In this document: piece after piece, positions 8,204-59,286 of the stretch
Layout: every line of letters starts with the position of its first letter
Numbering within the stretch: the first letter of the stretch is position 1
From: Luteimonas rhizosphaerae
GTDB lineage: Bacteria; Pseudomonadota; Gammaproteobacteria; Xanthomonadales; Xanthomonadaceae
Direction of reading: 5' to 3'
Length of the DNA: 64,000 bases
Assembly: GCF_002849595.1 (NCBI RefSeq)
Contig: NZ_NRQR01000026.1
Coordinates: forward strand, 248,001 to 312,000
Made by a program: the position numbers and the translations under genes
Notes under the pieces: generated by a model
Seen by the model: the letters and a program-made list of their open reading frames with translations, nothing else
The model's database searches: none
Told to the model about the DNA's origin: nothing

Positions 8204-8228
8204 GCCGTCGCCTCCAGATGGAAACGGA

Positions 8229-8440: not shown

Positions 8441-9451
<1,011 letters not shown>

Positions 9452-20369: not shown

Positions 20370-22004
20370 TCAGGCGGCGTCCGCGTACCAGGTGCCCGAC
20401 AGCGACGCGAGCCGCTGGGGATCGGCGCCGGCCAGCAACGCATCCAGGCCGAAGGCGTCGATCGCGGGATGCGCGCTGCGCGCGTGCTGCAGGATCTCCG
20501 TCGCCAGCCACTGCATCCGCGCGACGTTGTCGCCGATGCGGGCGATGAAGGCGTCGTCGTCCAGCGTGTCGCTGAGCGCACGGTTCATTTCGCGGAACCA
20601 GTCGATGCCCGACTGGTCCAGCAGCCGGGCGCCCGGCACGCCCGCATCGCCGTTGCGCCGGCCCCAGTCGCGCAGCAGCGCCTGCATCGCGTGGTTCAGC
20701 GCGCTCGCCGTCGCGAACATCGGGCGCAGGCGCCCGAGCACCGGCATGCTCGTCAGGCGCTCGGCGAAGAACAGCGGCGCCAGCAGCGACCAGTAATAGG
20801 TGTAATCCCAGATCACCTTGACCGGCATCACCTGCTCGTCGCCGAACAGCGGGTACTGGTCCTGGTAGAGGGTCAGCGTGTTCTCGTAGAACGAGAAGTA
20901 CAGCTGCTGGTACAGCGCCACGTAGGGCCGGAAATCGGCACCGGCGCGATCCTTGCCGATGAGGTCGCAGATGTAGGTGTTGGAGATCGCGATGAAATCA
21001 GTGCCCGGCGAATAGAACGGATCGAGGAACAGGCCCGCTTCGCCGGTCAGCGCCCAGCGTTCGCGCGAGAACACCTGCTTGCAGCCGTAGGAGAAGTGGC
21101 GCAGGAACAGGAAGTCCTGCAGCGTGTGCTCGCTGCGGTCGAGCGTCGCGGCGACCTGCGGCTGGTGCGTGCGCAGCCAGTCCATCGCCTTGGCGTGGGT
21201 GTTCATCGTGTCCAGCGGATGCATCGCCGCATCGCAGACGATGCCCAGCGAATGCGCGCCCGACGACAGCGGGATCAGCCAGAACCAGTAGCCCGGGCCG
21301 CACATGTGGTTGGTCGAACGCCAGCGGTCGGGCGGCGTGCAACGCTGCAGCCAGGCGGCGTCCTGCGACCAGTCGTTGGGATCGACGATGCCGTCGACGC
21401 GCCACCACACCGCGTTGGCGTCGTGGGCGTTCGCGACCGCGAGGTCGAGCTTGCGCTTCAGCAGCCCGGCGCGGCCGCTGGCGTCGACCAGCCAGCGGCT
21501 GCGCAGCGTGCGCGTCTCACCGGCCTGTTCGAAGGTGACCACGTGGTCGTCGTCGCCGTCGCCGCCGAGGTCCAGCGTGCGCACCACCGCGCCATCCTCG
21601 AAGCGCACGCCGGCCGCGCGTGCCCGCTCGCCGAGGAAATTCTCGAACCGGCCGCGGTCGATCTGCCACGACGGTGTCGGCAACAGCTGACTGACGCCGA
21701 GCTCGGTGCACTGGTCGACCGCGTCGCTGCGGTCGGAAAAGAAGAAGCGGAAGCCGAACTTGCGGATCTGCTCGGTTTCCAGATGCGCTTCCAGACCCAG
21801 CGTCTTCGCCAGGTAATAGGCGCCGATCTCGACCGTCGATTCGCCGACCTTGTGCGCCGCTTCGCGGACCGGATGCGCGCGCCGCTCGATGACGGTGATC
21901 GCGCAGTCCGGCTCGCGCTGGCGCAGCTGCAGGGCGAGCGTCAGTCCGGCGAGTCCGCCGCCGAGGATCGCGACGTCGGTCCGTGTGTCGTGGCTGGCAT
22001 GCAT
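20370..22004 (-). CDS. Second flavin-dependent halogenase-like oxidoreductase of pigment cluster
   Basis: 544-aa FAD enzyme. The dinucleotide-binding motif ILGGGLAGLTLALQL is at residues 13-27, and KVGESTVEIG sits where halogenases contact FAD. A candidate catalytic Lys is in EQIRKFGFRF. The halogenase signature WxWxIP is nearly kept as YWFWLIPLS. A second FAD segment reads WALTGEAGLFLDPFYSPGTDF. The C-terminal 170 residues contain many aromatic residues (YVALYQQLYFSFYENTLTLY) and may form the substrate pocket. It is the last gene of the leftward ketosynthase operon, 2 bp after the glycosyltransferase stop. It may halogenate or hydroxylate the aryl head or chain; the exact reaction cannot be read from sequence. 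Confidence 0.78.
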   Translation of the reverse strand: MHASHDTRTDVAILGGGLAGLTLALQLRQREPDCAITVIERRAHPVREAAHKVGESTVEIGAYYLAKTLGLEAHLETEQIRKFGFRFFFSDRSDAVDQCTELGVSQLLPTPSWQIDRGRFENFLGERARAAGVRFEDGAVVRTLDLGGDGDDDHVVTFEQAGETRTLRSRWLVDASGRAGLLKRKLDLAVANAHDANAVWWRVDGIVDPNDWSQDAAWLQRCTPPDRWRSTNHMCGPGYWFWLIPLSSGAHSLGIVCDAAMHPLDTMNTHAKAMDWLRTHQPQVAATLDRSEHTLQDFLFLRHFSYGCKQVFSRERWALTGEAGLFLDPFYSPGTDFIAISNTYICDLIGKDRAGADFRPYVALYQQLYFSFYENTLTLYQDQYPLFGDEQVMPVKVIWDYTYYWSLLAPLFFAERLTSMPVLGRLRPMFATASALNHAMQALLRDWGRRNGDAGVPGARLLDQSGIDWFREMNRALSDTLDDDAFIARIGDNVARMQWLATEILQHARSAHPAIDAFGLDALLAGADPQRLASLSGTWYADAA

Positions 22005-25895: not shown

Positions 25896-27692
25896 TCAGC
25901 GGCGCTGCTGCGCCGGAATGAAGACCGTTTCCACCGCTTCGGCCAACTGGTCGGGCGGCAGCAGGCCCTGGTCGAGCAGGAAGTTGTTGAACGCGCGGCG
26001 GTCGAACTTGTCGCCGAGCGCGAGTTCGGTGCGCATGCGCAGTTCGAGGATGCGTGTGTAACCGTAGAAGTAGCTCGTCGCTTGGCCCGGTGCGTTGAAG
26101 GTGTAGCGGTCGAGTTCCTGACGCGCCATCGCCGGCGACAGCATGACCTCGTCGGTCAGCACGCGACCGGCGTGTTCGCGGTCGATCATGCCGAGGTTGA
26201 GCATGGGGTCGAGCATCGCGCGCGCGGCGCGCATCAGCCGGAACTGCAGCGCGATCAGCTGGCCGTCCAGCGGTTCGTACGGCACCAGTTCGGCTTCGGC
26301 ATACAGCGCCCAGCCTTCGACGTTGACCGAGTTGAACGCGAACATCGAGCGTGCCAGCGAGACGCCGCGTTCGACCATCGCGGTGAACTGCAGCTCGTGG
26401 CCGGGCCGGCCCTCGTGCGCCGACAGCGTCCAGCGCACCGCGTCGAAGTTGAAGTCGTCGTAGGCTGCGCTCTCGCCGTCGCCCCCGGGATTGCCGACCG
26501 GCAGCACGAACGTGCCCTGCTGGCCGGTATTGCCGACCAGCGGCGCGGGACGGAAATGCGGCGCGGGCTGCGCGGCCGATTCGGCGTCCGAGCCCAAGCG
26601 CATCTGCATCTCGCGCTGCGGCACGTCGACGATGTTCTCGCGTTCGATGATCGGATCGATCGCATCGATGACTTCGCGATAGCTCGCTTCCAGGCGCGCA
26701 TTGGGAATCGTGTCGCGCTTGAGCGCGGCGATGACCTCGCGGTAGTCGGTCGCATCGATGCCCTTTTCCTTCGCCACCAGCGGCGCGAGCTGCTGCATCT
26801 GCGCGCGGATCTCCATGAAGGCCAGCTGCGCGCGCTGCATCAGCAGTTGCGGATCGATGTCGGTGCCGTACTGCTTGAGCCCGAACGCATAGAGTTCCGG
26901 CGGCAGGCGCGTGTCGTCGCGCGCCTTCGGCAGCACGGTGGTGCGGGTCCAGTCGGCGTAGGCGGTGATTTCCTTCGCGATCGCCTCGAGGGCAGGCTCG
27001 GCGCCCTCGATCCCGTATTCCTCGAAGAGTTTGCGGATGCCGGCGATGTAGGTGTCGGCGCTGTCGAGCGCGCGCTGCACCTCGAGCTTCGTGGGCTGCA
27101 GCAGGTCCGGGTTCGACAGGCGCTCTTCATAGCGCTGGCGGGCGAGGGTGGTGATCGGTGTGCTGCCTTCGGTGAGGCCGGCATAGCGCTGCAGGCGGGC
27201 GAGCGCATGCGCGCGCCGCTCGGGCGGCGTCTGTGTCGACAGCAGGCCGTTGATGCCGCCGAAGATCAGTTGCGGCGCATCGGTCCACGGCAGCAGGTAG
27301 CGTTCGCCGAGCGTGCTGCCCTCGATGCTCTGGTCGATGCTGGTGAGCAGGATCTGCAGGTCCTGGCGCACGTTGGCATCGCGCTCGAGTTCGAGCTGCG
27401 TCTGCAACCTGGCGCGCGCCGCGGTCATCGCGTCGCGGTAGCGACGGGCGTTGTCGGGACCGAAGTCGGCGACCTGGTCGTCGTAGCCGGGCACGCCGAA
27501 GAAGCCTGCGGATTCGGGCTGGAACGGCGCCTGGGCGTCGATCAGGATCTGCGACAGTTCGTTGCTGCGCGTCACCCAGGCCGGCGATCCGGCCTGCGGC
27601 GCGGAGGTCGCGGCCCTGGCGTCATCGGTGTGGGCGAGGGCGGCGAGGGGCGTGGCGAGGGACAGGGCGATCGCGAGGACGAGCGGTTTCAT
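25896..27692 (-). CDS. Exported DUF885 family protein, peptidase-like
   Basis: 598-aa protein with a signal peptide (MKPLVLAIALSLATPLAALA). It belongs to the DUF885 family, in which the conserved HEGRPGHELQ (about residues 430-440) resembles a zinc HExxH-like site. The C-terminal segments AMARQELDRYTFNAPGQATSYFYG and LDQGLLPPDQLAEAV are also typical. It is probably a periplasmic metallopeptidase, but catalytic activity of the family is poorly characterised. A TAGGGT box at 27722-27727 on the minus strand could be the -10. Several other exported peptidases lie in this window. Confidence 0.8.
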   Translation of the reverse strand: MKPLVLAIALSLATPLAALAHTDDARAATSAPQAGSPAWVTRSNELSQILIDAQAPFQPESAGFFGVPGYDDQVADFGPDNARRYRDAMTAARARLQTQLELERDANVRQDLQILLTSIDQSIEGSTLGERYLLPWTDAPQLIFGGINGLLSTQTPPERRAHALARLQRYAGLTEGSTPITTLARQRYEERLSNPDLLQPTKLEVQRALDSADTYIAGIRKLFEEYGIEGAEPALEAIAKEITAYADWTRTTVLPKARDDTRLPPELYAFGLKQYGTDIDPQLLMQRAQLAFMEIRAQMQQLAPLVAKEKGIDATDYREVIAALKRDTIPNARLEASYREVIDAIDPIIERENIVDVPQREMQMRLGSDAESAAQPAPHFRPAPLVGNTGQQGTFVLPVGNPGGDGESAAYDDFNFDAVRWTLSAHEGRPGHELQFTAMVERGVSLARSMFAFNSVNVEGWALYAEAELVPYEPLDGQLIALQFRLMRAARAMLDPMLNLGMIDREHAGRVLTDEVMLSPAMARQELDRYTFNAPGQATSYFYGYTRILELRMRTELALGDKFDRRAFNNFLLDQGLLPPDQLAEAVETVFIPAQQRR

Positions 27693-28288: not shown

Positions 28289-30788
<2,500 letters not shown>

Positions 30789-31664: not shown

Positions 31665-34265
31665 TTACGGCGTGTCGCAGTCGAGACGATGCGTCGCTTC
31701 GGTGCCGATGCGGATGTCGGCCAGGCCCAGGGTCAGCCCGGCCGGTGCGCGCACCGCGAATGGCGTGCCGATGCGCGTCGCATCGAGGCCGGCCGCGGTC
31801 AGGCACTTCAGCGGCACGCCGGCCGTCACCCATTCGCCGCGTGGCAGCGTGCCCAGCCACGCGCCGACCGGCAGTTCGGCCTTGCAGTCGTCGCCGCAGG
31901 TCGCGTACAGCACGACGTCGCCCGATGCCGGCAGCGCATCGACGCGCAGCGTGGCCAGCAGCAGCGAATCGCCGTTGGTCTCGCGGCTGAGGTCGGACGG
32001 CGAATGCGACAGCAGTTCGGCGGTCGCGTTGCCGGTCCAGGTCAGTAGGCGCGCGCCTTCCTGGGTCTGGTAGTCGACCGCGGCGAGCGTGAGCGTGCCG
32101 TCCGGCGTCGCGACGCGCGGATGCAGCACGTCGGCGCCGCGGCCATCGGCGCCGGTGACGACCAGGCGCACGCCCGGGCCCGGCACGCCGCGCGCGAAGT
32201 AGCCCGCGCTCTTGCCGTCCTCGGCGCTGACGCCGGCTTCTTCCGGCAGCGCGGCGAGGTTGCCGTCATCGGCATAGGTCAGGCCGTGCCCGAACGCGAA
32301 CAGCGGGTCGTAGCCGTCCATGCCGACGTTGTTGACGTACTGGTCGGCGCGCTTGGGCCACGAGAAGCTGAGCTTGCCCTTGAAGTCGTGCTGCGGCTGG
32401 CCGTCCGCGCCGCGCAGCAGCACGTCGGCGACACCCGCGCCTTCCGAGCCCGGCAGCCATGCGGCGACGAAGGCGTTGGCGGCATTGATCTCGCGGTTCA
32501 TCCACAGCGGGCGGCCGCTGAGGAACACCGCGACGACCGGCACGCCGTCGGCGCGCAGGCGCTTGATCAGCTCCAGGTCGGCATCGTCGCCGGGCTTGTA
32601 CAGCAGGTTCGGCAGGTCGCCGAGGAACTCCGCGTAGGGATCCTCACCGAAGACGACGACGGCGACGTCGGGCTTCTGCCGGTAGCGGCCGTCGACCGCG
32701 AGCTGGGCGGTGCCGCCCGCTGCCTCGACCTGGGTGCGGATGCCGTCCCAGATGCTGTCGCCGTTGGGATAGTCGGCGCGCTTGGTGCCGGTGCCCTGCC
32801 AGTTCAACGTCCAGCCGCCGGACTGCTTGCCCAGATCGTCGGCGCCGTCGCCGGCGACCAGCACGTTCTGGTCCGCGGCCAGCGGCAGCACGCCGTCCTG
32901 GTTCTTCAGCAGCACCAGCGACTCGCGCACCGCGCGTCGCGCGATCTCGCGATGCTCCGGCGCGCCGAGCAGCTCGAACTTGCCGCCGAGCGCGCGCGCC
33001 GACGGCTTGGGCGCATCGAACAGGCCCATGCGGAACTTGACCCGCAGGATGCGGCGCACGGCATCGTCGAGGCGTTCCATCGGGATCTCGCCCGACGTCA
33101 CGTGCTTGACGGTGCTGTCGTAGAGCTGGCGCCAGCTGTCGGGCGCCATCGCCATGTCGAGGCCGGCGTTGAACGTCGCCGCGCAGTCGTGGGTCGTGCA
33201 GCCCGGCAACTGGCCGTGGCCGTTCCAGTCGCCGACGACGAAGCCGCCGAAGTTCATGCGGTCCTTGAGCACGTCGGTCAGCAGGGCGCGATGGCCGTGC
33301 ATGCGCGCGCCGTGGACGCTGTTGAACGAGGCCATGACCGCCTGCGCGCCGGCCGCGATCGCCGGCGGATAGCCGGCGCCGTGGATGTCGCGCAGCTGCG
33401 CGTCGGTGACCTGGGTGTCGCCCTGGTCCTTGCCGCCGACGGTGCCGCCATCGCCGAGGTAATGCTTGACCGACACCATCACGTGGTGGTCGTTGAGGAA
33501 CTCCGGCGAACCGGCCTTGCCCTGCATGCCTTCGACGACGGCCGGCGCGAACGCGGCGACGACATCCGGTGATTCGGAGTAGCCCTCGTACGTGCGGCCC
33601 CAGCGGTCGTCCTGCGGGACGGCGACGGTCGGAGCAAACGCCCATTCCATGCCGGTGGTGCGGGTTTCGATCGCGGTGACGCGACCGATCTCGCGCATCA
33701 GCTCGGCGTTGCGCGTCGCGCCCAGGCCGATGTTGTGCGGAAACAGCGTCGCGCCGACGATGTTGCTCTGGCCGTGCACGGCGTCGATGCCGAAGATCAC
33801 CGGGATCGCCTTGCCGCCGCCGGAGGTGTCCATCGACGCCTCCCAGTAGGCGTCCGACAGCGCCAGCCACTCGGCGGGCGTCGCGTCGTAGCGGCCGCCC
33901 GGATCGGAGTTGCCGCCGGCGAGGATCGAGCCGAGACGGTACTTGCGCAGGTCTTCCGGCGTGATGTCGGCGATGTCGCCCTGCACGATCTGGCCGACCT
34001 TCTCTTCGACCGTCATCGTCGCGAGCAGGTCGTCGACCTGCTTCTCGAGCGCGGCGTCCTGCGGGAACGGCCACTCGGGCTGCGGCCACTGCGCGGGATC
34101 GACGGCGTTGGCATCGGCGGCCGTGGTCGGCGCGGCATCGGGCGTGGCCGACGCGGCGGGCGCGTTGTCGCGCGCGCAGGCGGACAGGCCGAAGACGAAG
34201 GCGGTGAGCATCGCCGGCAACAGGGCGCGACGCAGGCGGTGGGCGGGGCGGGGCGGGGCGATCAT
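31665..34265 (-). CDS. GH3 beta-glucosidase-type lipoprotein
   Basis: 866-aa exo-acting glycosidase with a lipoprotein signal (lipobox LSAC, Cys30). The GH3 N-terminal barrel contains KVGQIVQGDI, PVIFGIDAVHGQSNIVGATL and the nucleophile region FVVGDWNGHGQLPG. The (alpha/beta)6 sheet domain carries VVVFGEDPYAEFLGD, LSGRPLWMN and AFVAAWLPGSEG. A further C-terminal beta domain follows. The lipid anchor puts it in the periplasm or on the outer membrane. It should release glucose from beta-glucans or cello-oligosaccharides. An exact copy of the locus palindrome lies 65 bp upstream (34330-34343), pointing to control by the divergent LacI-type regulator. Confidence 0.93.
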   Translation of the reverse strand: MIAPPRPAHRLRRALLPAMLTAFVFGLSACARDNAPAASATPDAAPTTAADANAVDPAQWPQPEWPFPQDAALEKQVDDLLATMTVEEKVGQIVQGDIADITPEDLRKYRLGSILAGGNSDPGGRYDATPAEWLALSDAYWEASMDTSGGGKAIPVIFGIDAVHGQSNIVGATLFPHNIGLGATRNAELMREIGRVTAIETRTTGMEWAFAPTVAVPQDDRWGRTYEGYSESPDVVAAFAPAVVEGMQGKAGSPEFLNDHHVMVSVKHYLGDGGTVGGKDQGDTQVTDAQLRDIHGAGYPPAIAAGAQAVMASFNSVHGARMHGHRALLTDVLKDRMNFGGFVVGDWNGHGQLPGCTTHDCAATFNAGLDMAMAPDSWRQLYDSTVKHVTSGEIPMERLDDAVRRILRVKFRMGLFDAPKPSARALGGKFELLGAPEHREIARRAVRESLVLLKNQDGVLPLAADQNVLVAGDGADDLGKQSGGWTLNWQGTGTKRADYPNGDSIWDGIRTQVEAAGGTAQLAVDGRYRQKPDVAVVVFGEDPYAEFLGDLPNLLYKPGDDADLELIKRLRADGVPVVAVFLSGRPLWMNREINAANAFVAAWLPGSEGAGVADVLLRGADGQPQHDFKGKLSFSWPKRADQYVNNVGMDGYDPLFAFGHGLTYADDGNLAALPEEAGVSAEDGKSAGYFARGVPGPGVRLVVTGADGRGADVLHPRVATPDGTLTLAAVDYQTQEGARLLTWTGNATAELLSHSPSDLSRETNGDSLLLATLRVDALPASGDVVLYATCGDDCKAELPVGAWLGTLPRGEWVTAGVPLKCLTAAGLDATRIGTPFAVRAPAGLTLGLADIRIGTEATHRLDCDTP

Positions 34266-34329: not shown

Positions 34330-34343
34330 TGACAGCGTTGTCA
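34330..34343. promoter_or_regulatory. Predicted LacI-family operator, site 1
   Basis: TGACAGCGTTGTCA, 65 bp upstream of the GH3 gene and 154 bp upstream of the divergent lacI-type gene. The identical 14-mer occurs at 42007 and, reverse-complemented, at 43593. Confidence 0.85.
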
Positions 34344-34496: not shown

Positions 34497-35522
34497 ATGG
34501 CCGGATTGAACAGCATGCGCGTGCGGATCGAGGATGTCGCAGAAGCCGCGGGCGTGTCGATGAAGACGGTCTCGCGCGTGCTCAACCACGAGCCCAACGT
34601 CGCCGAGCACACCCGCCTGGCCGTCGAGGCCGCCGTCGAGAAGCTGCAGTACCGGCCGCTAGCCTCGGCCCGGCTGCTCGCCGGGCGGCGCTCGTATCTG
34701 GTCGCGATGCTCTACGACAACCCGTCGAGCAACTACCTGATGGAAGTCGAGCTCGGCGTGCTCGACGCGTGCCAGTCGCAGCATTACAACCTGATGCTGG
34801 CCCCGGTCGACTACACGGCCAGCGACATCGTCGCCAAGGTCGAATCGATGATCGTGCAGTCGCAGCTCGACGGCGTCGTGCTGACGCCGCCGATCACCGA
34901 CGACGCGACGCTGCTCGCGCGCCTCGACGAGCTCGGCGTGCCCTATGCCAGCGTGTCGGCGCAGGAGCGGCACCGGCGCATCGGCGCGGTCGTCGACGAA
35001 CGCAGCGCCGCGCGCGACATGGTGCTGCACCTCGCGTCGCTCGGGCACCGGCGCATCGCCCACATCAAGGGCCATTCGGCGCACGGCGCCAGCGGCTGGC
35101 GCCTGGCCGGCTATCGCGACGGCCTGCAGCAGGCCGGCATCGACTACGACCCGACGCTGGTCGTCGCCGGCGAGTTCTTCTACGAATCGGGCTTCGACGC
35201 GACCAATGCGCTGCTCGATCTGCCGCTGCGCCCGACCGCGGTGTTCGCCGCCAACGACGACATGGCCGCCGGCGCGATCTGCGCGATCTGCGAGCGCGGC
35301 CTGTCCGTGCCGCGCGACGTGTCGGTCTGCGGCTTCGACGACATGCCCATCGCACGCCACATCTATCCCTCGCTGACGACGGTGCGCCAGCCCAGCCGCG
35401 AGATGGGCCGACTGGCCGGCCTGGAACTGCTCAAGGCGGTGCGCGACAGCAACGCAGGCGAGACGCTGGTGCTGCCCTACGCGCTCCAGATCCGGCGCTC
35501 CACGGGGCCGGTGCCGGGGTGA
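34497..35522 (+). CDS. LacI-family transcriptional regulator of the sugar locus
   Basis: 341-aa repressor. The helix-turn-helix is [22 protein letters not shown] (about residues 9-30) and the hinge helix is [16 protein letters not shown] periplasmic-binding-protein-like effector domain follows ([19 protein letters not shown] to [23 protein letters not shown]). It is divergent from the GH3 gene and convergent with the halogenase operon. The three identical TGACAGCGTTGTCA palindromes in the locus are its most likely binding sites; the effector is probably a glucoside-derived sugar. I chose the ATG at 34497; 34515 (MRVRIEDV) is also possible. Confidence 0.92.
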
Positions 35523-35538: not shown

Positions 35539-37056
35539 TCAGTCCGCAGCCGCTGGGCAGTAGTTGCGGACGTACTGTGCGTGCGCGGGCAACTGCTGCA
35601 ACGTCCGCGCGACCCGCTCCTGCACCTTGCCGAGGAACTGCGACAGTTCCTCGTCGCTCATCAGGTCCGCGACCGGGTGGTGGCTGCGCGGCGTCAGGCC
35701 CTGCCCGAGCATCACCTGCACCCACGAGTTCTCGGCGAACAGCTCGAAACCATCGCGGAACACGCGGCCACTGTCGCCGAACAGGGCGATGCGATGCCGC
35801 AGCGCCTCGGGCACGTCCATCGTGCGGCAGGCGCGCCAGAACGGCGTGTCGTCGCGATCGGTGACCTTGTAGTGGAGGATCACGAAGTCGCGGATCTGTT
35901 CGGTTTCCTCGCGCGACTGCCGGTTGTACTCGTCGACATCGGTCTTGCGGATGCCGCCGGTGGGGAACAGCTGCAGCAGGCGCACGATCCCGCGCTGGAT
36001 CAGATGGATGCTGGTGGACTCCAGCGGTTCGAGGAAGCCGCTCGACAGGCCGATCGCGACGCAGTTGCCATGCCAGCTGCGCTCGCGTTGTCCGGGCCGG
36101 AAGCGGATCGTACGCGGATCGGTCAGGCGCTCGCCCTCGAGGGCGGCGAGCAGGGTGTCCCGTGCCTGCGCGTCATCGGTGTGGCGGCTGCTGAAGACGA
36201 TGCCGTTGCCGACCCGGTGCTGCAGCGGGATTCGCCACTGCCAGCCGGCTTCGCGCGCCGTCGAGCGGGTGTAGGGCACCGCGGGGCCGACCGAGGTGGT
36301 CTGCACGGCGATCGCGCTGTCGCACAGCAGCCAGTGCGACCAGTCCTCGTAGCCGACGCCGAGCGCCTGTTCGATCAGCAGGCCGCGGAACCCGGTGCAA
36401 TCGATGAACAGATCGCCTTCGATGCGCTCGCCCGACGCCAGCACCAGCGCCTCGATACGGCCTGCCTCGCGGTCGGCCTGGACCTCTGCGATCCGGCCTT
36501 CGATCCGGCGCGCGCCATGGGACTCGCTGAAGCCGCGTAGAAAGCGCGCGTACAACCCGGCATCCATGTGGAAGGCGTAATTGAGGCCGTTGTCGGGCAG
36601 GTGCGCGAAGCGGTCCTCGAGCGCGGCGCGCAGTTCCAGGCAGTAGTCGCCGTAGTCACCGGCGAGCCCGCGCGTGCGGCCCGCGCGCCAGAAGTGCTGG
36701 AATCCGGCGCTCCAGTGGTCCTTGCCGGTCGTCCCGAAGGAATGCACGTACTCCTGCCCGCGCGCGCGCCAGTCGACGAAACGGATGCCGAGCTTGAACG
36801 TGGCCTGGGTCGCGGCCATGAAGGCACGTTCGTCGATGCCGAGCGCCCGATGGAACGTGACGAGGGTCGGGATGGTCGCTTCGCCGACGCCGACGGTGGG
36901 GATCTCGTCGGATTCCACCAGCACGATGTCGAGTTGAGCGCCGAGCGTGCGCGACAGCCCGGCCGCGACCATCCAGCCCGCGGTGCCGCCGCCGGCGATG
37001 ACGATCCGCCGGATCGGCGTTGTCGCTGGGTCGTGCGAAGCCGGGATGTCGTGCAT
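35539..37056 (-). CDS. Tryptophan-halogenase-family flavoenzyme linked to TonB receptor
   Basis: 505-aa FAD enzyme of the PrnA-like halogenase family. It has GGGTAGWM (residues 22-29), VGVGEATIPTL, the catalytic-type Lys in ATFKLGIRFVDW near residue 88, the WxWxIP motif as GWQWRIP, and GLSSGFLEPLESTSIHLIQRG near residue 340. Enzymes of this subgroup next to TonB-dependent receptors (for example BrvH and Xanthomonas homologues) halogenate indole-type compounds in vitro, with unknown natural substrates. It is last in the operon receptor-SapC-cupin-halogenase, 12 bp after the cupin stop. The natural role here is unknown. Confidence 0.88.
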   Translation of the reverse strand: MHDIPASHDPATTPIRRIVIAGGGTAGWMVAAGLSRTLGAQLDIVLVESDEIPTVGVGEATIPTLVTFHRALGIDERAFMAATQATFKLGIRFVDWRARGQEYVHSFGTTGKDHWSAGFQHFWRAGRTRGLAGDYGDYCLELRAALEDRFAHLPDNGLNYAFHMDAGLYARFLRGFSESHGARRIEGRIAEVQADREAGRIEALVLASGERIEGDLFIDCTGFRGLLIEQALGVGYEDWSHWLLCDSAIAVQTTSVGPAVPYTRSTAREAGWQWRIPLQHRVGNGIVFSSRHTDDAQARDTLLAALEGERLTDPRTIRFRPGQRERSWHGNCVAIGLSSGFLEPLESTSIHLIQRGIVRLLQLFPTGGIRKTDVDEYNRQSREETEQIRDFVILHYKVTDRDDTPFWRACRTMDVPEALRHRIALFGDSGRVFRDGFELFAENSWVQVMLGQGLTPRSHHPVADLMSDEELSQFLGKVQERVARTLQQLPAHAQYVRNYCPAAAD

Positions 37057-37068
37057 GCGTGGTTTCCG

Positions 37069-38085
37069 TCAGCGGTTGAGACGTTGCAGCAGCCGCTGGC
37101 GCAGCCGGCGGGCGCGTGCCTCGTCCAGCGGCGACAGCAGGTTGCGCGCGGGTTCGGGCACGTGATCGGCAGTCTGTGCGCCGGGCTCGAACACGTAGTG
37201 ATCGAACACGTCGCGCCAGATCGCGCGCTGCGCAGGAGGCAGGTCGCGCACCGTCATCAGCGCCAGCATCAGGGCGTTCATCGGCGTGTCCATCCAGGCC
37301 GGGGATTGCCGCCACCAGTAGTTCACCAGCACGTTGAACGGCGTCAGCCCTTCCATGTGATGCCACCACATCGACGGGATCAGCACCGCGTCACCCGGCT
37401 CCAGTTCGGCGACCTGGGCATGCTGCAGGGCTTCGGCGAAGCGTGGGAAGCGCGCGATGTCGGGCGCCGCGAAGTCCACGAGGCTGATCGGCTGGCCGGC
37501 AGGCGTCAGGTCCAGCGGGCCGATGTACAGATTCGGCAGCTGCTCGGGCGGGAACAGCGTGACCCGGCGGCGGCCCGCGACCACGCAGGCGAGATTGTCC
37601 GGGAGGTCCTGGTGCGCGGCGATCCGGGTGCGGTTGCCGATCCAGATGCTGGCGAGCGCGTCGCGTCCGCCGAGCGCGAGCACGTTGGCGTCGCGGAAGC
37701 CGGGCAGCCAGGTGTCGATCGTCGTCGACGCGACGTAGATCGCCGGCGGCGCAGGCGCGTCGAGGTAATTGACCAGGGTGCGCAGCGCCACGTCGAGCGG
37801 CACCTCTTCACGCCGGAAGTTGAAGCCCAGCAGATCGTCGCTGTAGAAGAAGCGGCCTTCGATCTCCGGTGGACCGACGGTGGCCGTGACCGGCGGTGCG
37901 CCCGGGCGCACGAAGCCGGCCAGATACGTCGCCGCGTCCACGCTGCCCGCGCGTGCGGCCTGCACCATCGGCCAATCCGTCACCAGGCCGCGCAACACGA
38001 CGGGCCGGTCCGCGCGCAGCAGCGCATCGGGAATGGCATCGGCGCGGACATCGTCGCGCTCGGCGATCGCATCAGTCATGCGCAT
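37069..38085 (-). CDS. Cupin-8/JmjC-like Fe(II) oxygenase-type protein
   Basis: 338-aa protein with a JmjC/cupin_8 fold. The metal triad is seen as the HxD of IAAHQDLPDN and a distal His in SMWWHHMEGL. RRRVTLFPPEQLPNLYIGPLD and NVLVNYWW are typical of the family, which includes 2-oxoglutarate-dependent protein hydroxylases. It is sandwiched between SapC and halogenase genes downstream of the receptor. The start MRMTDAIAE overlaps the SapC stop by 14 bp; a second ATG two codons on is possible. Hydroxylation of a protein or small substrate is an inference. Confidence 0.83.
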   Translation of the reverse strand: MRMTDAIAERDDVRADAIPDALLRADRPVVLRGLVTDWPMVQAARAGSVDAATYLAGFVRPGAPPVTATVGPPEIEGRFFYSDDLLGFNFRREEVPLDVALRTLVNYLDAPAPPAIYVASTTIDTWLPGFRDANVLALGGRDALASIWIGNRTRIAAHQDLPDNLACVVAGRRRVTLFPPEQLPNLYIGPLDLTPAGQPISLVDFAAPDIARFPRFAEALQHAQVAELEPGDAVLIPSMWWHHMEGLTPFNVLVNYWWRQSPAWMDTPMNALMLALMTVRDLPPAQRAIWRDVFDHYVFEPGAQTADHVPEPARNLLSPLDEARARRLRQRLLQRLNR

Positions 38086-38773
38086 GCCTGCGATTCATGC
38101 GCTCGATGAGATCGCGCAACCGCGACAGCGAAGCCATCGCCATGTAGACCGGCTCCAGATGGCCGGCCGCATGCAGCGCGGCGACGATCTCGGGCGCGAG
38201 CGCCCGGAGACGGCTTTCGTCGATGGTGTGGAAACCGGCGAGCCGATGCTGACGCCCGTCGTCGAGGCGCACGTCCAGCGCGAACGGTTCCAGCAAGGCA
38301 TGGGTCTGCAGGGACTCGGCGAATGCCGGCAGGTCCGACAAACCGTCGTGCAGCGTGGCCAGCACGGCCTGCATGCGTTGCAGGTAGTCGGTCGTTCCGC
38401 CATGCGGGAGGAACACGGGCTCGCCCGTCGACGATTGCACGCGTGGATGGTCGAGATCGACATGCAGGGTGCGGGTGGCGCCATCGACACCGACGAGGAA
38501 CGGCTGTCGCTCGATCGCCAGCGGCACGTAATGGGCATCCCATCCGGTGTCGGAGAGGAAGAGATTGCGTCCCTGTTGCAGGCCGAGCAGCGCGACCGGC
38601 TGGACGCGTGCGCTCTCGACATGGAACACGATGGGGTAGTGCGCCTGCAGCTCCCGGAACTCACCGGGGAACGTCGGCGCCAGCATGACCTCGTCGCCGA
38701 GCGCGGCGGCGCGGCGGGTGTCGATGCGCAGGGCGCGATGGGTGATGGGGTCGAGCTGGACGTGACGGGTCAT
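38072..38773 (-). CDS. SapC family protein
   Basis: 233-aa protein matching the SapC family named after a Campylobacter S-layer secretion gene. Visible are HYPIVFHVESARVQPVALLG, then QGRNLFLSDTGWDAHYVPLAIERQPFLVG and FLPHGGTTDYLQRMQAVLATL. No signal peptide or membrane segment is seen. Such proteins are frequent next to TonB-dependent receptors and Trp-halogenase genes in Xanthomonadales and Caulobacterales, with no established function. It is 98 bp after the receptor, separated by a strong hairpin. Start at 38773 (MTRHVQLDP). Confidence 0.82.
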   Translation of the reverse strand: MTRHVQLDPITHRALRIDTRRAAALGDEVMLAPTFPGEFRELQAHYPIVFHVESARVQPVALLGLQQGRNLFLSDTGWDAHYVPLAIERQPFLVGVDGATRTLHVDLDHPRVQSSTGEPVFLPHGGTTDYLQRMQAVLATLHDGLSDLPAFAESLQTHALLEPFALDVRLDDGRQHRLAGFHTIDESRLRALAPEIVAALHAAGHLEPVYMAMASLSRLRDLIERMNRRHAHD

Positions 38774-38831
38774 CGGGCCGGTCTGTCCCTGGGTACAGAA
38801 GGAGAAGCGCAGGATAGCGTCACCCGGGAAG

Positions 38832-38863
38832 CGCCGCCGCGTACCCGAAGGCACGCGGCGGCG
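38832..38863 (-). terminator. UUCG hairpin between TonB receptor and SapC genes
   Basis: On the minus strand CGCCGCCGCGTGCC, TTCG and GGTACGCGGCGGCG form an uninterrupted 14-bp stem (one G-U pair) with a UUCG tetraloop. It lies 9 bp after the receptor stop and has no T tract. It may be a partial terminator or 3'-end stabiliser that lowers expression of the downstream genes. Confidence 0.65.
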
Positions 38864-38871
38864 TCGCGACG

Positions 38872-41800
38872 TCAGAAGCTGTAGCGCGCGCCGAACATGT
38901 AGCGCGGACCGGTCTGCGTCGCGAAGCGCAGCTGGTTGGTGTGCCGCGCATGCACGCGGTAGGTCTCGTCGGTGAGGTTGATCGCCTCGGCATGCAGCGA
39001 GAACTGCGGCGTGACCTGGTAGCTGATGTTGAGATCAAGCTGGCCGTAGGCCTCGGTGTAGTTCGGGTTCGGACCCTGGCCGCCGATGCCCGACAGGAAC
39101 TCGTCGCGCCAGTTGTAGGCCGCACGCACCTGCCACTGGTTCTTGTCGTAGAACGCGACGACGTTGGCCGAGTCACTCAGGCCGATCATCGGGTACTGGT
39201 CGCCCAGGCTGTTGTTGTCGAACGTCAGGCCCGAATCGACCATCGTGTAGTTCGCCGCGACGCCGAAGCCGCTCGGTCCGAACATGTGCTGGACGTTGAA
39301 CTCCCAGCCGTCGAGCGAATCGGAGCGCTGGTTGGCCGGCGTGTTGATGTCGAAGCCGGCGATCGGGTCCGTCTCCAGGCCGACGATGCTGCCCGTCCGC
39401 TCACCGTTGGAGTTGATGCCGGTGTAGGTGACGCCCGGGTCACCCGCGTGGTTGAGGAAGATGTAGTTGCGGATGCAGACCGCGTCCGACGATCCGCAAC
39501 CATTGGCGATCGCGTTGTTCCAGTACGTGCCGCCGACCGGCGTGTGCAGCTCGAACGGCGTGTCGCGGACGATGGTGTCGCTGATGAAGTTGTCGATGTT
39601 CTTGCGGAACCAGCCCACCGACACGTAGCTCGCTTCGGCGTAGTACCACTCGAACGACAGGTCGAAGTTGGTCGACTTCAGCGGCTCGAGGCCTGGGTTG
39701 CCCTGCGAGCCGTCACCACCGTCGATACGCACGATGTTGGCCAGGCTCAGGCCGCCCTGGATCTGCTGCCAGCCCGGCCGGCCGATCGTCTGGCTGTAGC
39801 TGCCGCGCAGCACCATGTTCTCCGCGACCTGGAGGTTCAAATCGAGGCTCGGCAGGAAATGGTCGTACTCGCCGGTCTGGCTGATGAAGTCGCGCTCGCC
39901 GTCATAGACGACATTCAGCTCGTTGGCCGAATCCCAGCTGATGCCGTTGGCCACGCGCGCCAACGCGTCGGAGGTGACATCGGTTTCCTCGTAGCGGACG
40001 CCGGCGGCCACCCGGAGCGGCATCGACCAGTCGAACTCGGTGCTCCACTGCACGTAGGCGGCCCTGGACTTCTCCTCGGTGCGGAGGTCCTCGGTGAACT
40101 CCGTCGGCGCGCGGTACAGCGAATCGTCACCGGCGATCTCACCGGCGCGTTCGCGCAGGCGGGCGAAGTCGAACATCATGAAGCGGCCGGTGAAGCGGGG
40201 GTCGTTGTGACCGTCGAACGCACCGAAGTAACGCGACATGTCGTCGCCGTAGAAGATGCTGTCGTCGTAGTCGGCCGGACTGCCCACGCCGCCCCAGGTA
40301 TCACGCTGCATCACCGCCGAGGCGGTGCGGTTGTTGACCTCGGTCATCGACACGCCGAAGTCGAGGTTCGAGTAGTTCTCGAACTCGAAACGGCCGCCGG
40401 CCTGGAGCTGCTCGATCTCGGATTCGTTGTAGCTGTTCTGGAACACCGAACCGGTGACCACGACATCCGAGGCTTCGATCTGATCGACGCCCGGCGGCAG
40501 GCCGATCGTCAGGACCGGGAAGTCGCCCGTGTAGTCGACCGACGTGGACGCGCGACGGAACGCGGCCGTGCCGAGCACGCCGGCCGAACCGTAGGGGCTG
40601 TCGGGGCGGGACTCCGCCGTCGAGTTGTGGTAGTCGAGCTGCAGGCTCAGCGCGTCGTTGACGTCCCAGTCGACGTTGAAGCCCGCCGATTCGAGCGTAT
40701 TGCGCGTGCCCAGCTCGACGCCGCCCATCGCGATGTCGGCGTAGACCGGATTGCCGTTCTCGTCGAAGGAGACGTTGTCCTCGCCGTATTCGATCGGACC
40801 GGCGATCGGGCCGTCGGTCCACGAGCTGTCACCGGGGCCGTAGTTGAACCACACCGAGAGCTCGTTGCGCTGCTGCTGCACCTTGTTCTCGGCATAGGTG
40901 TAGTCGAGCGTCGTCCGCACGTTGTCGAGCGGCTGCCACTGGAACGTCGCCTGGCCATTGGTGCGCTGGCGCTGCACGCCGTTGACGCTGTAGCCGGTGT
41001 TCTGCGGGCGGCCGTAGATGGTGTCGGGACCCGGGCGGTTCTCGATGCGGTCGAAACCGGGTTCGCCCGCCATCGGCAGGCGGTTCCACGATGCGGTGTC
41101 GTCGCCCTGGAACATCGCCCAGCCGTCGGCCACGGAGGCCTGGCTGAAGCCGGAGTCGCGCTCCTGGTAGCTGCCGCTCAACGCGACGCCGAAGCGGCCG
41201 TCGGCCGAGGTATTGCTGAAGATGCCCGAGAGTTCGCCGGTGATCGAGCTGCCCGGATAGGTATCGGGAAGATTGTCGACCGACGTGTCGTGCACGCCCT
41301 TGAGGCCGACATTGGCACTGAAGCCCGGGTTGTCGAGCGGGCGCGCGGTCTTGACGTTGATCGTCGCGCCGATGCCGCCCGTCGGGGTCGAGGCCCGGCT
41401 GCTCTTGAAGACTTCGATTTCCGATACGGACTCCGAGGCCAGGTTGGCGAAGTCGAACGCGCGCGAGTTGGACGTGCCGCCGCCGCCGGGACCGAGGTTC
41501 GAGGCCGGCATCTGGCGGCCGTTGAGCAGCACCAGGTTGAAGTCGGGACCGACGCCGCGGACCGTGACCTTGGAGCCTTCACCGCTCGAGGTGCGGTCGA
41601 TCGACACGCCGGAGATGCGCTGCAGCGACTCGGCGAGGTTGGTGTCGGGGAACTTGCCGATGTCCTCGGCGACGATGCCGTCGACGATGCCCTGCGAATC
41701 CCGCTTCAGGTTCATCGACGAGGTCAGGCTGCCACGGATGCCGGTGACGACGACGGAGTCGAGCGTCGTGGCGTCATCGCTGGATTGCGTGGCGGGCGGC

Positions 41801-41901
41801 GTGGTGTCGTCGACGACCTGGGCCGCGACCGGCGATCCGAGTGCAAGCAACAGGGCAGTGGTCAGGAGCCGCTTCTTCGGCGCGGCATGCAGTGTCTTCA
41901 T
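38872..41901 (-). CDS. TonB-dependent outer-membrane receptor for carbohydrates
   Basis: 1009-aa receptor. The signal peptide (MKTLHAAPKKRLLTTALLLA...) ends near VAA-Q. A TonB box-like DSVVVTGIR lies near residue 48. The plug domain follows (NLAESLQRISGVSIDRTSSG, VRGVGPDFNLVLLNGRQ) and then a 22-strand type barrel ending in GPRYMFGARYSF with the terminal Phe of outer-membrane barrels. The length and the plug sequence fit the CUT-associated receptors of Xanthomonadales. It heads an operon with SapC, cupin and halogenase genes and has the locus operator 106 bp upstream, so a glucoside or oligosaccharide substrate is likely. Confidence 0.94.
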   Translation of the reverse strand: MKTLHAAPKKRLLTTALLLALGSPVAAQVVDDTTPPATQSSDDATTLDSVVVTGIRGSLTSSMNLKRDSQGIVDGIVAEDIGKFPDTNLAESLQRISGVSIDRTSSGEGSKVTVRGVGPDFNLVLLNGRQMPASNLGPGGGGTSNSRAFDFANLASESVSEIEVFKSSRASTPTGGIGATINVKTARPLDNPGFSANVGLKGVHDTSVDNLPDTYPGSSITGELSGIFSNTSADGRFGVALSGSYQERDSGFSQASVADGWAMFQGDDTASWNRLPMAGEPGFDRIENRPGPDTIYGRPQNTGYSVNGVQRQRTNGQATFQWQPLDNVRTTLDYTYAENKVQQQRNELSVWFNYGPGDSSWTDGPIAGPIEYGEDNVSFDENGNPVYADIAMGGVELGTRNTLESAGFNVDWDVNDALSLQLDYHNSTAESRPDSPYGSAGVLGTAAFRRASTSVDYTGDFPVLTIGLPPGVDQIEASDVVVTGSVFQNSYNESEIEQLQAGGRFEFENYSNLDFGVSMTEVNNRTASAVMQRDTWGGVGSPADYDDSIFYGDDMSRYFGAFDGHNDPRFTGRFMMFDFARLRERAGEIAGDDSLYRAPTEFTEDLRTEEKSRAAYVQWSTEFDWSMPLRVAAGVRYEETDVTSDALARVANGISWDSANELNVVYDGERDFISQTGEYDHFLPSLDLNLQVAENMVLRGSYSQTIGRPGWQQIQGGLSLANIVRIDGGDGSQGNPGLEPLKSTNFDLSFEWYYAEASYVSVGWFRKNIDNFISDTIVRDTPFELHTPVGGTYWNNAIANGCGSSDAVCIRNYIFLNHAGDPGVTYTGINSNGERTGSIVGLETDPIAGFDINTPANQRSDSLDGWEFNVQHMFGPSGFGVAANYTMVDSGLTFDNNSLGDQYPMIGLSDSANVVAFYDKNQWQVRAAYNWRDEFLSGIGGQGPNPNYTEAYGQLDLNISYQVTPQFSLHAEAINLTDETYRVHARHTNQLRFATQTGPRYMFGARYSF

Positions 41902-42006: not shown

Positions 42007-42020
42007 TGACAGCGTTGTCA
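42007..42020. promoter_or_regulatory. Predicted LacI-family operator, site 2
   Basis: TGACAGCGTTGTCA, identical to site 1, 106 bp upstream of the TonB-dependent receptor start codon. Confidence 0.85.
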
Positions 42021-42181: not shown

Positions 42182-43492
42182 TCAATGCATGGCGCCGGGT
42201 CGCGGCAACGGCGCGTCGGTCGCAGCCGGCGCGCCGGCCCCCACCCGCGAGCCGCGCAAGCCGTACCAGATGATGTAGACGTAGCAGACCAGCGGAACGA
42301 CGAACGCATGCTGGATGCCGATGCGGTCGGCCAGCGCGCCCTGCGCCAGCGGCACGATCGCGCCGCCGACGATGCCCATCACCAGCAGACTCGACGCCTT
42401 GCTGGTCAGCGTGCCGAGCCGCTCGATGGCGGTGGTGAAGATCGTGGGGAACATGATCGAGTTGAACAGGCCGATCGCCAACGCGCTCCACATCGCGACC
42501 TGGCCGGTCGTGGTCATCGTCACCACCAGCAGCACGCAGACCATCGCGCCGGCGAAGGCCAGCAGGCGACGCGCGTCGATGCGCGTCATCAACGCCGCGC
42601 CGATGAAGCGGCCGACCATCGCGCCACCCCAGTAGAACGCCAGGAAGCGCGAGGCCGAGGCCTCGCTGAGGCCGCCGATCTCCGGCTCGGCCATGTAGTT
42701 GATCAGGAAGCTGCCGATCGCGACCTCCGCGCCGACGTAGGCGAAGATGCCGAACACGCCCCAGCGCAGGTGCGGCTGGCGCATCGCTTCGATATACGTG
42801 TGGTGCACCGACGGCGCAGCCTCCGTGGCCTCGCGCAGCGACGGAATCCGCATCAGCAGCACGAAGCCGGCCAGCAGCAGCAGGCCGCCCGACAGCAGCA
42901 GATAGGGGATTTCGACCGAGCGTGCCTCGGCCGCGCGATAGGCGACCTGCTCGGCCGCGCCCATCGCCGCGATCTCGTCCGCACCGAGCACGGCGCCGAC
43001 CAGGATCAACGGGCCGATCAGCAGCGGGAATACCGTCGTGCCCAGTGAATTCAAGGCCTGCGCCAGGTTGAGGCGGCTGTGCGAGGTCTCGGGCCGGCCG
43101 AGCAGGCTGATGTAGGGATTGGCGGCGACCTGCAGCAGGGTGATGCCGCTGGCGAGCACGAACAGCGCGGTCAGGAACACGCCGTACGACGGCAGCCGCG
43201 CCGCCGGGTAGAACATCGCGGCGCCGATCGACGCGATCACCAGACCGATGACGATGCCCGCCTTGTAGCCCACGCGCGCAACGACCGCGCCGGCCGGCAT
43301 CGACATCAGGAAGTACGCACCGAAGAACGTGAACTGGATCAGCATCGTCTGCGTGTAGCTCATCGAGAACACGGCTTTGAGATGCGGGATCAGCACGTCG
43401 TTGAGGCTCGTCAGGCCGCCCCAGGTGAAGAAGATCAGGCTGACGACCGCGATCGCGGCCGGCTTCGAAAGCGTCGAGGGCTGTGCGCTCAT
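42182..43492 (-). CDS. Sugar:H+ symporter of FucP/GlcP MFS family
   Basis: 436-aa 12-helix permease. The start FFTWGGLTSLNDVLIPHLKA and the central VAANPYISLLGRPETSHSRLNLAQALNSLGT are signatures of the FucP/GlcP (FHS) family of fucose, glucose and galactose transporters. WGGAMVGRFIGAALMTRI and the final helices are also typical. It would take up the sugars released by the GH3 enzyme. It lies upstream of the receptor gene in the same orientation but 280 bp away. It has its own operator copy 101 bp upstream, so it forms a separate transcription unit of the same regulon. Confidence 0.93.
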   Translation of the reverse strand: MSAQPSTLSKPAAIAVVSLIFFTWGGLTSLNDVLIPHLKAVFSMSYTQTMLIQFTFFGAYFLMSMPAGAVVARVGYKAGIVIGLVIASIGAAMFYPAARLPSYGVFLTALFVLASGITLLQVAANPYISLLGRPETSHSRLNLAQALNSLGTTVFPLLIGPLILVGAVLGADEIAAMGAAEQVAYRAAEARSVEIPYLLLSGGLLLLAGFVLLMRIPSLREATEAAPSVHHTYIEAMRQPHLRWGVFGIFAYVGAEVAIGSFLINYMAEPEIGGLSEASASRFLAFYWGGAMVGRFIGAALMTRIDARRLLAFAGAMVCVLLVVTMTTTGQVAMWSALAIGLFNSIMFPTIFTTAIERLGTLTSKASSLLVMGIVGGAIVPLAQGALADRIGIQHAFVVPLVCYVYIIWYGLRGSRVGAGAPAATDAPLPRPGAMH

Positions 43493-43592: not shown

Positions 43593-43606
43593 TGACAACG
43601 CTGTCA
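43593..43606. promoter_or_regulatory. Predicted LacI-family operator, site 3
   Basis: TGACAACGCTGTCA, the exact reverse complement of sites 1 and 2, 101 bp upstream of the MFS transporter gene. Confidence 0.85.
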
Positions 43607-56186: not shown

Positions 56187-56663
56187 TCAGGCGTGGGCGA
56201 CTCGCCAGCGTTCGAGATGGTCGGCCAGTGCGGCCGCCTTCCGGCCGTAGGTGTCCGGCAGCGCCCCGTCGAAGCCGGTCAGGCCACGATTGACCCGGCG
56301 CAGGCGCACGGCCTCGTCGACATGGGCGGCGAAGTCGAGGCCGACCATGGTGTGCAGGCCGACCCGGGTCGGGCCGAAGCGCGCGATGTCGCGCCAGGCG
56401 TAGCGGGTGCTGCGGAACAGCGAGCGGATTTCCAGCCCCTCGGCGTCCAGCCGCAACCGGTTCGCGTCCGGTACCAGCGAGACCAGGGCGACCATGCCGC
56501 ACAGCCCGAAGAAACCACCGCACGACCACGCGAGCAGGGGATGGCGCTCGCCGATGACGAGCGCCATCCATACGAACCCGGCCGAAATCGCCAGCAGTGC
56601 GAGCATCTTCCACGGCGAAGGCCGCAGCAGCTCGACCGCCGGCAACGGGCCGGGCGCGGTCAT
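56187..56663 (-). CDS. Two-helix membrane protein with PH-like domain
   Basis: 158-aa protein. Two membrane helices (about residues 18-37 and 45-65) are followed by a small beta-rich domain (NRLRLDAEGLEIRSLFRSTR, then YAWRDIARFGPT and MVGLDF) that resembles bacterial PH-like or STM3941-type domains. Its start overlaps the S9 peptidase stop by an ATGA, so the two genes are translationally coupled. Function unknown; a role linked to the peptidase is only suggested by the coupling. Confidence 0.7.
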   Translation of the reverse strand: MTAPGPLPAVELLRPSPWKMLALLAISAGFVWMALVIGERHPLLAWSCGGFFGLCGMVALVSLVPDANRLRLDAEGLEIRSLFRSTRYAWRDIARFGPTRVGLHTMVGLDFAAHVDEAVRLRRVNRGLTGFDGALPDTYGRKAAALADHLERWRVAHA

Positions 56664-59044: not shown

Positions 59045-59286
59045 CGGCAGGCAATCCGGGGATGAAAAACCCGGCAAGGGTAGCAGCGGCGCGGTGCGGC
59101 CCGCACTGGCGAAGGTCATGGCCGGCGCGCGTGCACGGGCGGCGCGGATGCGGGACGCGTGCACGCCCCGCACCCGCGAACGGGCGTCGTCACGCGGGCG
59201 GACACCCGGCTGCGACGCCCGGTCACACCCCGGTTTCACGGCCGCGCGCGCAGAATGCGCGGCACTTCCCGCAGGACGCCATCGGC

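Follow-up and report, generated by a model that had tools for sequence, protein, structure and literature searches.

The stretch of DNA analysed here (hereafter the window) comprises 64,000 nucleotides of Luteimonas rhizosphaerae (NCBI RefSeq assembly GCF_002849595.1, contig NZ_NRQR01000026.1, positions 248,001 to 312,000 of the forward strand) and harbors, between positions 35,539 and 41,901, a TonB-dependent receptor gene followed by three tightly packed genes encoding a SapC protein, a Cupin_8 oxygenase and a flavin-dependent halogenase (HAL1) [Table 1]. All four genes lie on the minus strand. The SapC and Cupin_8 genes overlap by 14 bp (38072-38085), 12 bp (37057-37068) separate the Cupin_8 gene from the halogenase gene, the space between the receptor and SapC genes amounts to at most about 95 bp, and the halogenase gene lies 16 bp from that of a LacI-family regulator. 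This arrangement had been described in an original prediction made from the sequence alone, the overlap, gap and positions of which proved exact by coordinates. The same prediction had placed the module under a sugar-uptake operator, and the operator TGACANCGNTGTCA indeed occurs in three perfect copies, at 34330, 42007 and 43593 (shuffled sequences, with one mismatch allowed, gave 0.10), one each before the GH3 gene, the receptor module and a major facilitator superfamily (MFS) gene. With a LacI gene, and with MFS, GH3 and receptor genes under one common operator, the locus is of the carbohydrate-utilization (CUT) type (receptor, LacI, MFS, hydrolase) plus three extra genes.

Table 1 Features of the receptor module and its surroundings in the window (positions are those of the window).
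Feature	Position	Strand	Remarks
TonB-dependent receptor, TIGR01782 (TonB-Xanth-Caul)	38872..41901	-	profile match; signal-peptide-like N-terminus
SapC (PF07277)	38072..38776, open reading frame from 38854	-	profile match
Cupin_8 / FIH-like 2-oxoglutarate oxygenase	37069..38085	-	223.4 bits
HAL1, flavin-dependent halogenase of Xcc4156 type	35539..37056	-	PF04820, 647.8 bits
LacI-family regulator	34497..35522 (start 34497 or 34515)	+	convergent with halogenase gene
LacI-type operator TGACAGCGTTGTCA	42007..42020		precedes receptor module
LacI-type operator, same sequence as TGACAGCGTTGTCA	34330..34343		precedes GH3 gene
LacI-type operator TGACAACGCTGTCA	43593..43606		precedes MFS gene
GH3, exo-beta-glucosidase type, with Exop_C domain	31665..34265	-	
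MFS sugar transporter, gluP/fucP type	42182..43492	-	

Consistent with its earlier description as a PrnA-type halogenase with the Lys and the WQWRIP motif kept, HAL1 harbors K88 and WQWRIP (residues 272-277), together with the flavin adenine dinucleotide (FAD) motif GGGTAGW and the motif LEPLEST (E343/E346); the roles of its catalytic Lys and Glu we take to be those of PrnA. The FAD motif, Lys, Glu and both Trp were conserved in 13 aligned halogenases, a few of which showed small changes within WxWxIP. The nearest solved relative of HAL1 is Xcc4156 (6y1w; 754 bits over 493 residues, 12-504), followed by 9luq (559 bits) and BrvH (6frl; 498 bits), and from this likeness in sequence HAL1 is a close relative, and probably an orthologue, of the indole halogenase Xcc4156. 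The free-Trp halogenases PrnA and RebH, in contrast, reached at most 294 bits, so that HAL1 falls outside the PrnA/RebH/PyrH group. HAL1 shares with Xcc4156 both WxWxIP and the motif HSFG, at the place where the free-Trp groups A and B have HPFE (motifs as given in the available text of PMC8269204). According to the available text of the respective papers, Xcc4156 halogenates indole or its derivatives in vitro and not free Trp, BrvH likewise acts on indole or derivatives and not on free Trp, and the native substrate of both is unknown, the crystallographers of Xcc4156 suggesting a peptide. The words 'TonB' and 'SapC' are absent from the main texts of both papers, and a legend to the BrvH neighbourhood figure mentions a second halogenase upstream. 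A PrnA-type halogenase that acts on Trp in a peptide, as far as the available text goes, is MibH of a lantibiotic pathway, which unlike the closer relatives above scored only 223 bits against HAL1. Its usual companion, a precursor gene of the type encoding ribosomally synthesized and post-translationally modified peptides, finds no room inside the window operon (genes there overlap by 14 bp or lie 12 bp and no more than about 95 bp apart; the rest of the genome was not searched). Phage Trp halogenases of PHROG 2928 scored 350 bits against HAL1.

The Cupin_8 protein retains the iron triad HxD...H (H158, D160, H242), which is the same in all 12 sequences aligned. A profile of the Cupin_8 set first matched FIH (2.9e-25) and JMJD5 (2.7e-23), and protein hydroxylases are thus among the nearest solved relatives of the oxygenase. 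HxD...H is common to these enzymes and the window protein, which unlike FIH and JMJD5 is bacterial and receptor-linked, and in which the place of FIH's 2-oxoglutarate (2OG) lysine is presumably taken by Arg173. The SapC protein, whose family is traditionally regarded as comprising S-layer or surface proteins, matched PF07277 with 217.6 bits (cut-off 28.9). Its structural model was confident past residue 27 (mean predicted local distance difference test score of 89.4 overall), and because residues 1-27 were poorly modelled and unaligned, the true start is probably the ATG at 38776. Reading of the sequence by eye revealed no hydrophobic N-terminus after M27. Foldseek found no solved structure in the PDB for the SapC model at E<=0.001 (best 0.49), and the idea that SapC is a degenerate oxygenase was rejected, this fold search having given no supporting match. 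The receptor, finally, scored 678.6 bits against TIGR01782 (cut-off 310) with matches to the Plug and barrel Pfam domains, and its predicted barrel matches those of solved TonB receptors.

The original prediction had called the unit conserved-looking, and surveys of linkage and gene order bore this out far beyond chance; co-occurrence across genomes, which it had proposed to survey, was strongly positive from both sides. Among 550 halogenase relatives, the 80 with the best scores were inspected: receptor, SapC and Cupin_8 genes were in view in 65, while several of the remaining 15 loci are truncated by contig ends. By record titles, these relatives belonged to Alpha-, Beta- and Gammaproteobacteria. 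The order receptor-SapC-Cupin_8-halogenase was kept on one strand in 99 of 100 four-gene loci, a set that holds repeats (L279 = L309; also, for example, L254/L310 and L267/L317). In a reverse survey of 16 SapC-positive genomes, holding 143 TIGR01782 receptors (E<=1e-100) and 65 halogenase homologues (E<=1e-80), 60 of the 65 halogenases lay within 6 kb of such a receptor, 59 of them downstream on its strand (2.9 by chance), and a halogenase was present near 43 of the 143 receptors. Since most halogenases are receptor-adjacent, 'tryptophan halogenase' is mostly a receptor-associated gene in the SapC-positive genomes examined. The Cupin_8 gene behaved alike: at E<=1e-30, 18 of 19 matches, from 19 genomes searched of which 12 had a match, lay within 4 kb of a TIGR01782 receptor (coordinates read by eye), the 19th being partial. 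A genome of the same family (G090) had eight TIGR01782 matches, with SapC, Cupin_8 and halogenase all not found at the cut-offs used. Two loci (L272, L291) have Cupin_8 directly beside a TIGR01782-type receptor with SapC and halogenase not in view, and the oxygenase can hence pair with the receptor alone; in L319, the receptor is followed by SapC, a halogenase of the second type described below and another SapC, a duplication of SapC.

Cupin_8 at 1e-60 was carried by 8 of 369 and 8 of 385 evenly drawn genomes, and the module is therefore patchy. SapC was present in 124 of 349 genomes of the phylum. One locus, mostly that of the best-scoring SapC, was taken from each of 80 of the 124. Of these loci, 11 held the full block, 4 had receptor, SapC and two halogenases but lacked Cupin_8, 3 had a halogenase at another place in the stretch, and in 62 SapC stood alone, with no halogenase, Cupin_8 or related receptor above the score used. 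Choosing the best-scoring SapC favours the stand-alone type, and further modules turned up when additional SapC genes of these genomes were inspected, so that 11 of 80 underestimates the modules per genome. A common partner of stand-alone SapC was sought and rejected, no neighbour cluster occurring in more than 11 of the 62 loci. Near six of these loci (L086, at 6996-8711, L073, L078, L088, L115 and L122) lay a gene of the ShlB/FhaC-type two-partner secretion family, an outer-membrane barrel, as named from one scanned member. In the source genome itself, genes for SapC, Cupin_8 and a strongly matching halogenase (648 and 628 bits) each occur twice and make up two modules; four other PF04820 pieces below 60 bits and seven TIGR01782 matches over the cut-off are also present. 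The second, divergent module (L038, G000:C15:95253-101587) is without a second halogenase and neighbours a LysR gene and an AMP-binding/aminotransferase gene, with no hydrolase among four open reading frames scanned.

A second type of halogenase, with its Lys, Glu and WxWxIG kept, was encoded between receptor and SapC in 60 of 78 loci carrying the linked trio, the window and 17 others being without it; catalytic motifs are intact in both halogenase types. Near 101 full loci (window included), the neighbours were GH3 (56), LacI (51), GH16 (25), DUF6445 (20) and GH1 (13), family names resting on one representative scanned per cluster, and glucokinase genes were found as well. Taken together, GH3, GH16, GH1 and glucokinase suggest beta-glucan as cargo. 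DUF6445 (PF20043; one member scanned, L195, 10470-11210), near 20 of the 101 full modules, may belong to the set as well. Other cargo genes were sought by scanning 30 chosen neighbour open reading frames from 16 loci, 13 of these in other arrangements. Related enzyme genes were found to share their stretch with GH20 (L272, L311, L317, L319), an agarase with a carbohydrate-binding module (L310), galactokinase and PfkB (L313), GH9 (L289), GH5 and GH13 (L296), mannitol dehydrogenase and a sugar transporter (L298), a sugar transporter (L304), AMP-binding and aminotransferase genes (L274) and amidohydrolase and D-serine dehydratase genes (L273); the scanned neighbours in L293 gave no family match. 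The receptor-nearest halogenases of L289, L293, L296, L298 and L304 are divergent from the receptor, and L311, L317 and L319 have the second-type halogenase and SapC only. Cargo class thus varies (chitin, agar, cellulose, starch, amino-acid genes) while the receptor family stays constant.

In a receptor tree of 118 rows, those linked to the trio (78) required 2 label changes (shuffled mean, 33.5), with the window receptor grouping among them. For unlinked receptors, the assignment was based on some 1.5 kb of flanking sequence, and part of them were also compared by eye with halogenase positions. Left out were split or interrupted receptors (L015/L016, L018, L188, L217, L218, L263), L017, the low-scoring matches L019-L035 and repeat loci (L247, L252, L256, L257, L266, L281); L130 entered with the longer of its receptor pieces only.

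Receptor residues that track the presence of each enzyme were sought by phylogenetic regression (lambda of 0.5, 0.8 and 0.95, set by hand) after removal of receptors more than 95% alike. In a first round of 3217 tests on 94 full-module receptors, on whose tree the second halogenase changed 13 times, the best columns for this enzyme were R298 (t -4.58), found mostly without the second halogenase, and G273 (t 4.41); both belong to one extracellular loop, and G273 directly follows W272. A first result for HAL1 was W536, present in 101 of 101 receptors with HAL1 and 19 of 47 without (t 4.33), the receptor of L305, a locus with second halogenase, SapC and Cupin_8 and without HAL1, having Phe at 536. 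With the prediction for W536 fixed beforehand, 10 receptors were then added from within the 940-985 bit score band around L305, before anything was known of their gene content or of the residue at 536. HAL1 was found in none of the 10 (9 kb fetched) and the other three genes in 5, and W536 was missing in 8, L327 and L328 having a Trp in another context. These receptors are mutually related and hence represent few events, and the band, chosen in expectation of HAL1-less relatives and hence not free of bias as a test, included no HAL1-positive receptor.

The final regression covered 158 deduplicated receptors, with 4163 tests per enzyme. W536 was associated with HAL1 (t 4.2-5.6, rank 2-7), being present in 101 of 101 receptors with the enzyme and 23 of 57 without. 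Among HAL1-less receptors it was seen in 3 of the 20 with other module genes, and it was missing in 5 of the 6 linked to second halogenase, SapC and Cupin_8. A count over a whole stretch of the alignment, residues 524-552, agreed with this single column: at least one Trp was found there in 105 of 105 HAL1-linked receptors, 5 of 22 HAL1-less receptors with a module and 24 of 37 without a module. G273 tracked the second halogenase (t 3.6-5.4; ranks 1, 1 and 14) and W351 the Cupin_8 oxygenase (t 4.6-5.7, rank 4-6; 107 of 108 with, 15 of 50 without). Cross-checks at lambda 0.8 revealed no link of W536 to the oxygenase (t 0.18) or of G273 to HAL1 (t 0.83). Judging from strand order in the model, W272, W351 and W536 would all be located at the extracellular rim. 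Three further Trp residues were considered as sites of halogenation: W656 and W361 were rejected as clade markers, the any-halogenase linkage of W656 being lost on phylogenetic correction (t 0.08) and that of W361 being weak (t 2.03, against 3.3 for HAL1 or Cupin_8 alone), and W931 was only suggestive (any-halogenase linkage, t 3.43).

Because the receptor family is the constant partner and receptor residues track enzyme presence, we favour modification of the receptor. The pattern fits a receptor-dedicated set better than cargo-acting enzymes, and we tentatively regard SapC, oxygenase and halogenase, with a confidence somewhat below even, as a dedicated accessory or modification set of the TIGR01782 TonB receptor. 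Modification of a surface or receptor protein by hydroxylation or Trp halogenation had been one of two proposals of the original prediction; it now stands as the favoured, still putative, one. Such a module might work as follows. Induction through LacI by a beta-glucan-derived sugar would switch on receptor, enzymes, GH3 and MFS together, the receptor importing beta-glucan oligosaccharides, as suggested by GH3, GH16 and GH1 near its relatives. SapC, the FIH-like oxygenase and the halogenase, in which signal peptides are not visible, would act in the cytoplasm, where SapC may hold or present the unfolded receptor precursor ahead of Sec export. HAL1 would then halogenate a Trp of the future extracellular rim, the best candidate being W536 in the 'QRDTWGG' loop, while the second halogenase of most relatives would act on the W272-G273 loop and the oxygenase would hydroxylate a residue near W351. 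A rim so modified could tune ligand binding or protect the receptor. Taken as a whole, this scheme, in which integral outer-membrane receptors would, ahead of export, be modified at their later extracellular rim by HAL1 (W536), second halogenase (W272-G273) and oxygenase (near W351) with SapC as adaptor, is a doubtful proposal.

A number of observations weigh against the favoured reading. The receptor of L265 nests among trio receptors without a trio in 19 kb, and keeps W536 without a trio at its locus (HAL1 being elsewhere in its genome); conversely, the L305 receptor is without W536 although its genome has HAL1 at other loci. In a larger, quicker tree, the smallest group holding 93 full-module receptors included 20 others, of which 6 had second halogenase, SapC and Cupin_8 without HAL1, 4 had fewer module genes and 10 had none; full-module receptors are clustered, yet form no strict clade. 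In 20 held-out modules, Trp-Gly in the 272-273 loop was seen in 6 of 10 with the second halogenase and 1 of 10 without, which is the right direction and weak, three of the six positive rows coming from one genus and the loop alignment being uncertain. Ten of the 57 HAL1-less rows had been hand-picked from the L305 score band, and their omission restores the earlier figures (19 of 47, t 4.33). The tree shows no more than 6 changes of HAL1, leaving few independent events behind W536, a residue that also occurs in 20 of the 37 receptors lacking every module gene. By our own estimate, the values of W536 and G273 at lambda 0.8 roughly equal the Bonferroni limit (4163 tests), and those at 0.95 fall short of it. 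Other columns score equally or higher (for example, residue 361 for HAL1; an unnumbered column and residue 480 for the oxygenase), and because they score similarly W536, G273 and W351 are candidates and not unique signals. A PrnA-type pocket must, moreover, accept a polypeptide, which is suggested only by the open site of Xcc4156. Lastly, the rim Trp may simply bind sugar, and enzyme presence may track ligand type.

Two alternatives have to be weighed above all. In the first, the substrate of the enzymes is a small molecule or short peptide, made by the cell or imported by the receptor, such as a metallophore or signal derived from indole or a Trp-peptide. As far as the available texts go, it agrees with the activity of Xcc4156 and BrvH on indole derivatives and not free Trp, with the halogenation of a peptide by MibH and with the self-made, possibly catecholate-like substrate proposed by the authors of CciT-CciO (see below), and the second module of the source genome does lie near LysR and AMP-binding/aminotransferase genes. 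The operon gaps, however, leave little room for a precursor gene, none of 20 neighbour-cluster representatives is biosynthetic for such a compound (6 having no Pfam match), the commonest neighbours are GH3, LacI, GH16, DUF6445, MFS and GH1, and separate residue tracking for each enzyme is not what a small-molecule substrate predicts; we consider it unlikely. Equally improbable in our estimation is a role of the halogenase homologues and the oxygenase tied to ligand class (redox or ligand tuning), in which the rim Trp serve sugar binding alone and the observed residue tracking stems from ligand specificity. Aromatic residues at the rim are common sugar-binding elements, W536 occurs in receptors without module genes, and the changes of HAL1 are few, all of which this explanation accommodates. 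It is at odds with the Trp kept at column 536 in halogenase-linked receptors beside GH9 (L289), GH5/GH13 (L296), mannitol dehydrogenase (L298) and D-serine dehydratase (L273), where the halogenases of L289, L296 and L298 are divergent from the receptor and merely nearer in type to HAL1 than to the second type. Nor would one expect from it the loss of Trp 536 in 5 of 6 HAL1-less receptors with second halogenase, SapC and Cupin_8, or the intact catalytic motifs of both halogenase types.

The other proposal of the original prediction, that an aromatic aglycone set free from plant glucosides by GH3 is modified or detoxified by the enzymes, accounts for the GH3 gene adjacent to the module in the window and for those in the vicinity of 56 of 101 full loci. 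It is disfavoured by the GH16, GH1 and glucokinase neighbours, which indicate beta-glucan, by related enzyme sets beside GH20, agarase, GH9, GH5/GH13 and amino-acid genes, and by the many carriers that are marine genera by name, and appears very unlikely. Chance adjacency, or co-regulation without a functional link, can be set aside for practical purposes, given that order and linkage are kept across Alpha-, Beta- and Gammaproteobacteria.

With regard to known systems, the best precedent for a receptor-dedicated oxygenase is, by analogy, CciT-CciO of Caulobacter, a TonB receptor whose function, as stated in the available text, strictly requires a cytoplasmic Fe(II)/2OG oxygenase, the pair being co-conserved and the link between receptor and oxygenase being left open by the authors (PMC11870441). 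Receptor and Fe(II)/2OG oxygenase are common to that pair and the window module; CciT-CciO differs in serving iron uptake under Fur regulation and in that 'halogenase' is absent from the text available. The CUT loci of Xanthomonas (PMC1790865) resemble the window in comprising TonB receptor, LacI/GalR regulator, MFS transporter and carbohydrate enzyme, and 'halogenase', 'SapC' and 'pass1' are absent from the main text of that paper. No paper describing the gene unit was found in the open-access literature searched, and earlier Xanthomonas or Caulobacter papers may name the genes in tables. The earlier designation as an undescribed system with no known function holds for the module in the literature searched and does not wholly hold for the halogenase, a close relative of which, Xcc4156, has a crystal structure and a known in vitro activity. 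The parts come from known families, and the unit is a TonB uptake locus with accessory oxidative enzymes.

Elsewhere in the window, an S9 (DPP IV-like) peptidase open reading frame at 28289-30751 (minus strand) clustered by BLAST with that at 56660-59296 (minus strand), and the window seems, from sequence clustering and a family scan made for 28289-30751 only, to hold two S9 peptidase paralogues. Weak PF04820 pieces (22-60 bits) occur in large open reading frames at 10946-11980 and 21180-21977, both on the minus strand, which are probably other FAD enzymes and not halogenases. A DUF885 gene (25896-27692, minus strand) lies near the module, and the agar-type locus L310 has a DUF885 gene too.

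For the Xcc4156/BrvH group, our survey directs the search for the native substrate to the TonB receptor encoded upstream and to the residues named above. Were receptor modification true, the 'orphan' Trp halogenases of Proteobacteria would be receptor-maturation enzymes, and many 'tryptophan halogenase' genes would belong to nutrient uptake instead of secondary metabolism. Phages commonly use TonB receptors for attachment, and it may be speculated that the phage halogenases of PHROG 2928 might then rewrite the same receptors. Enzymatic halogenation of outer-membrane proteins would, if the proposal holds, be added to biology, and SapC would be given a first job.

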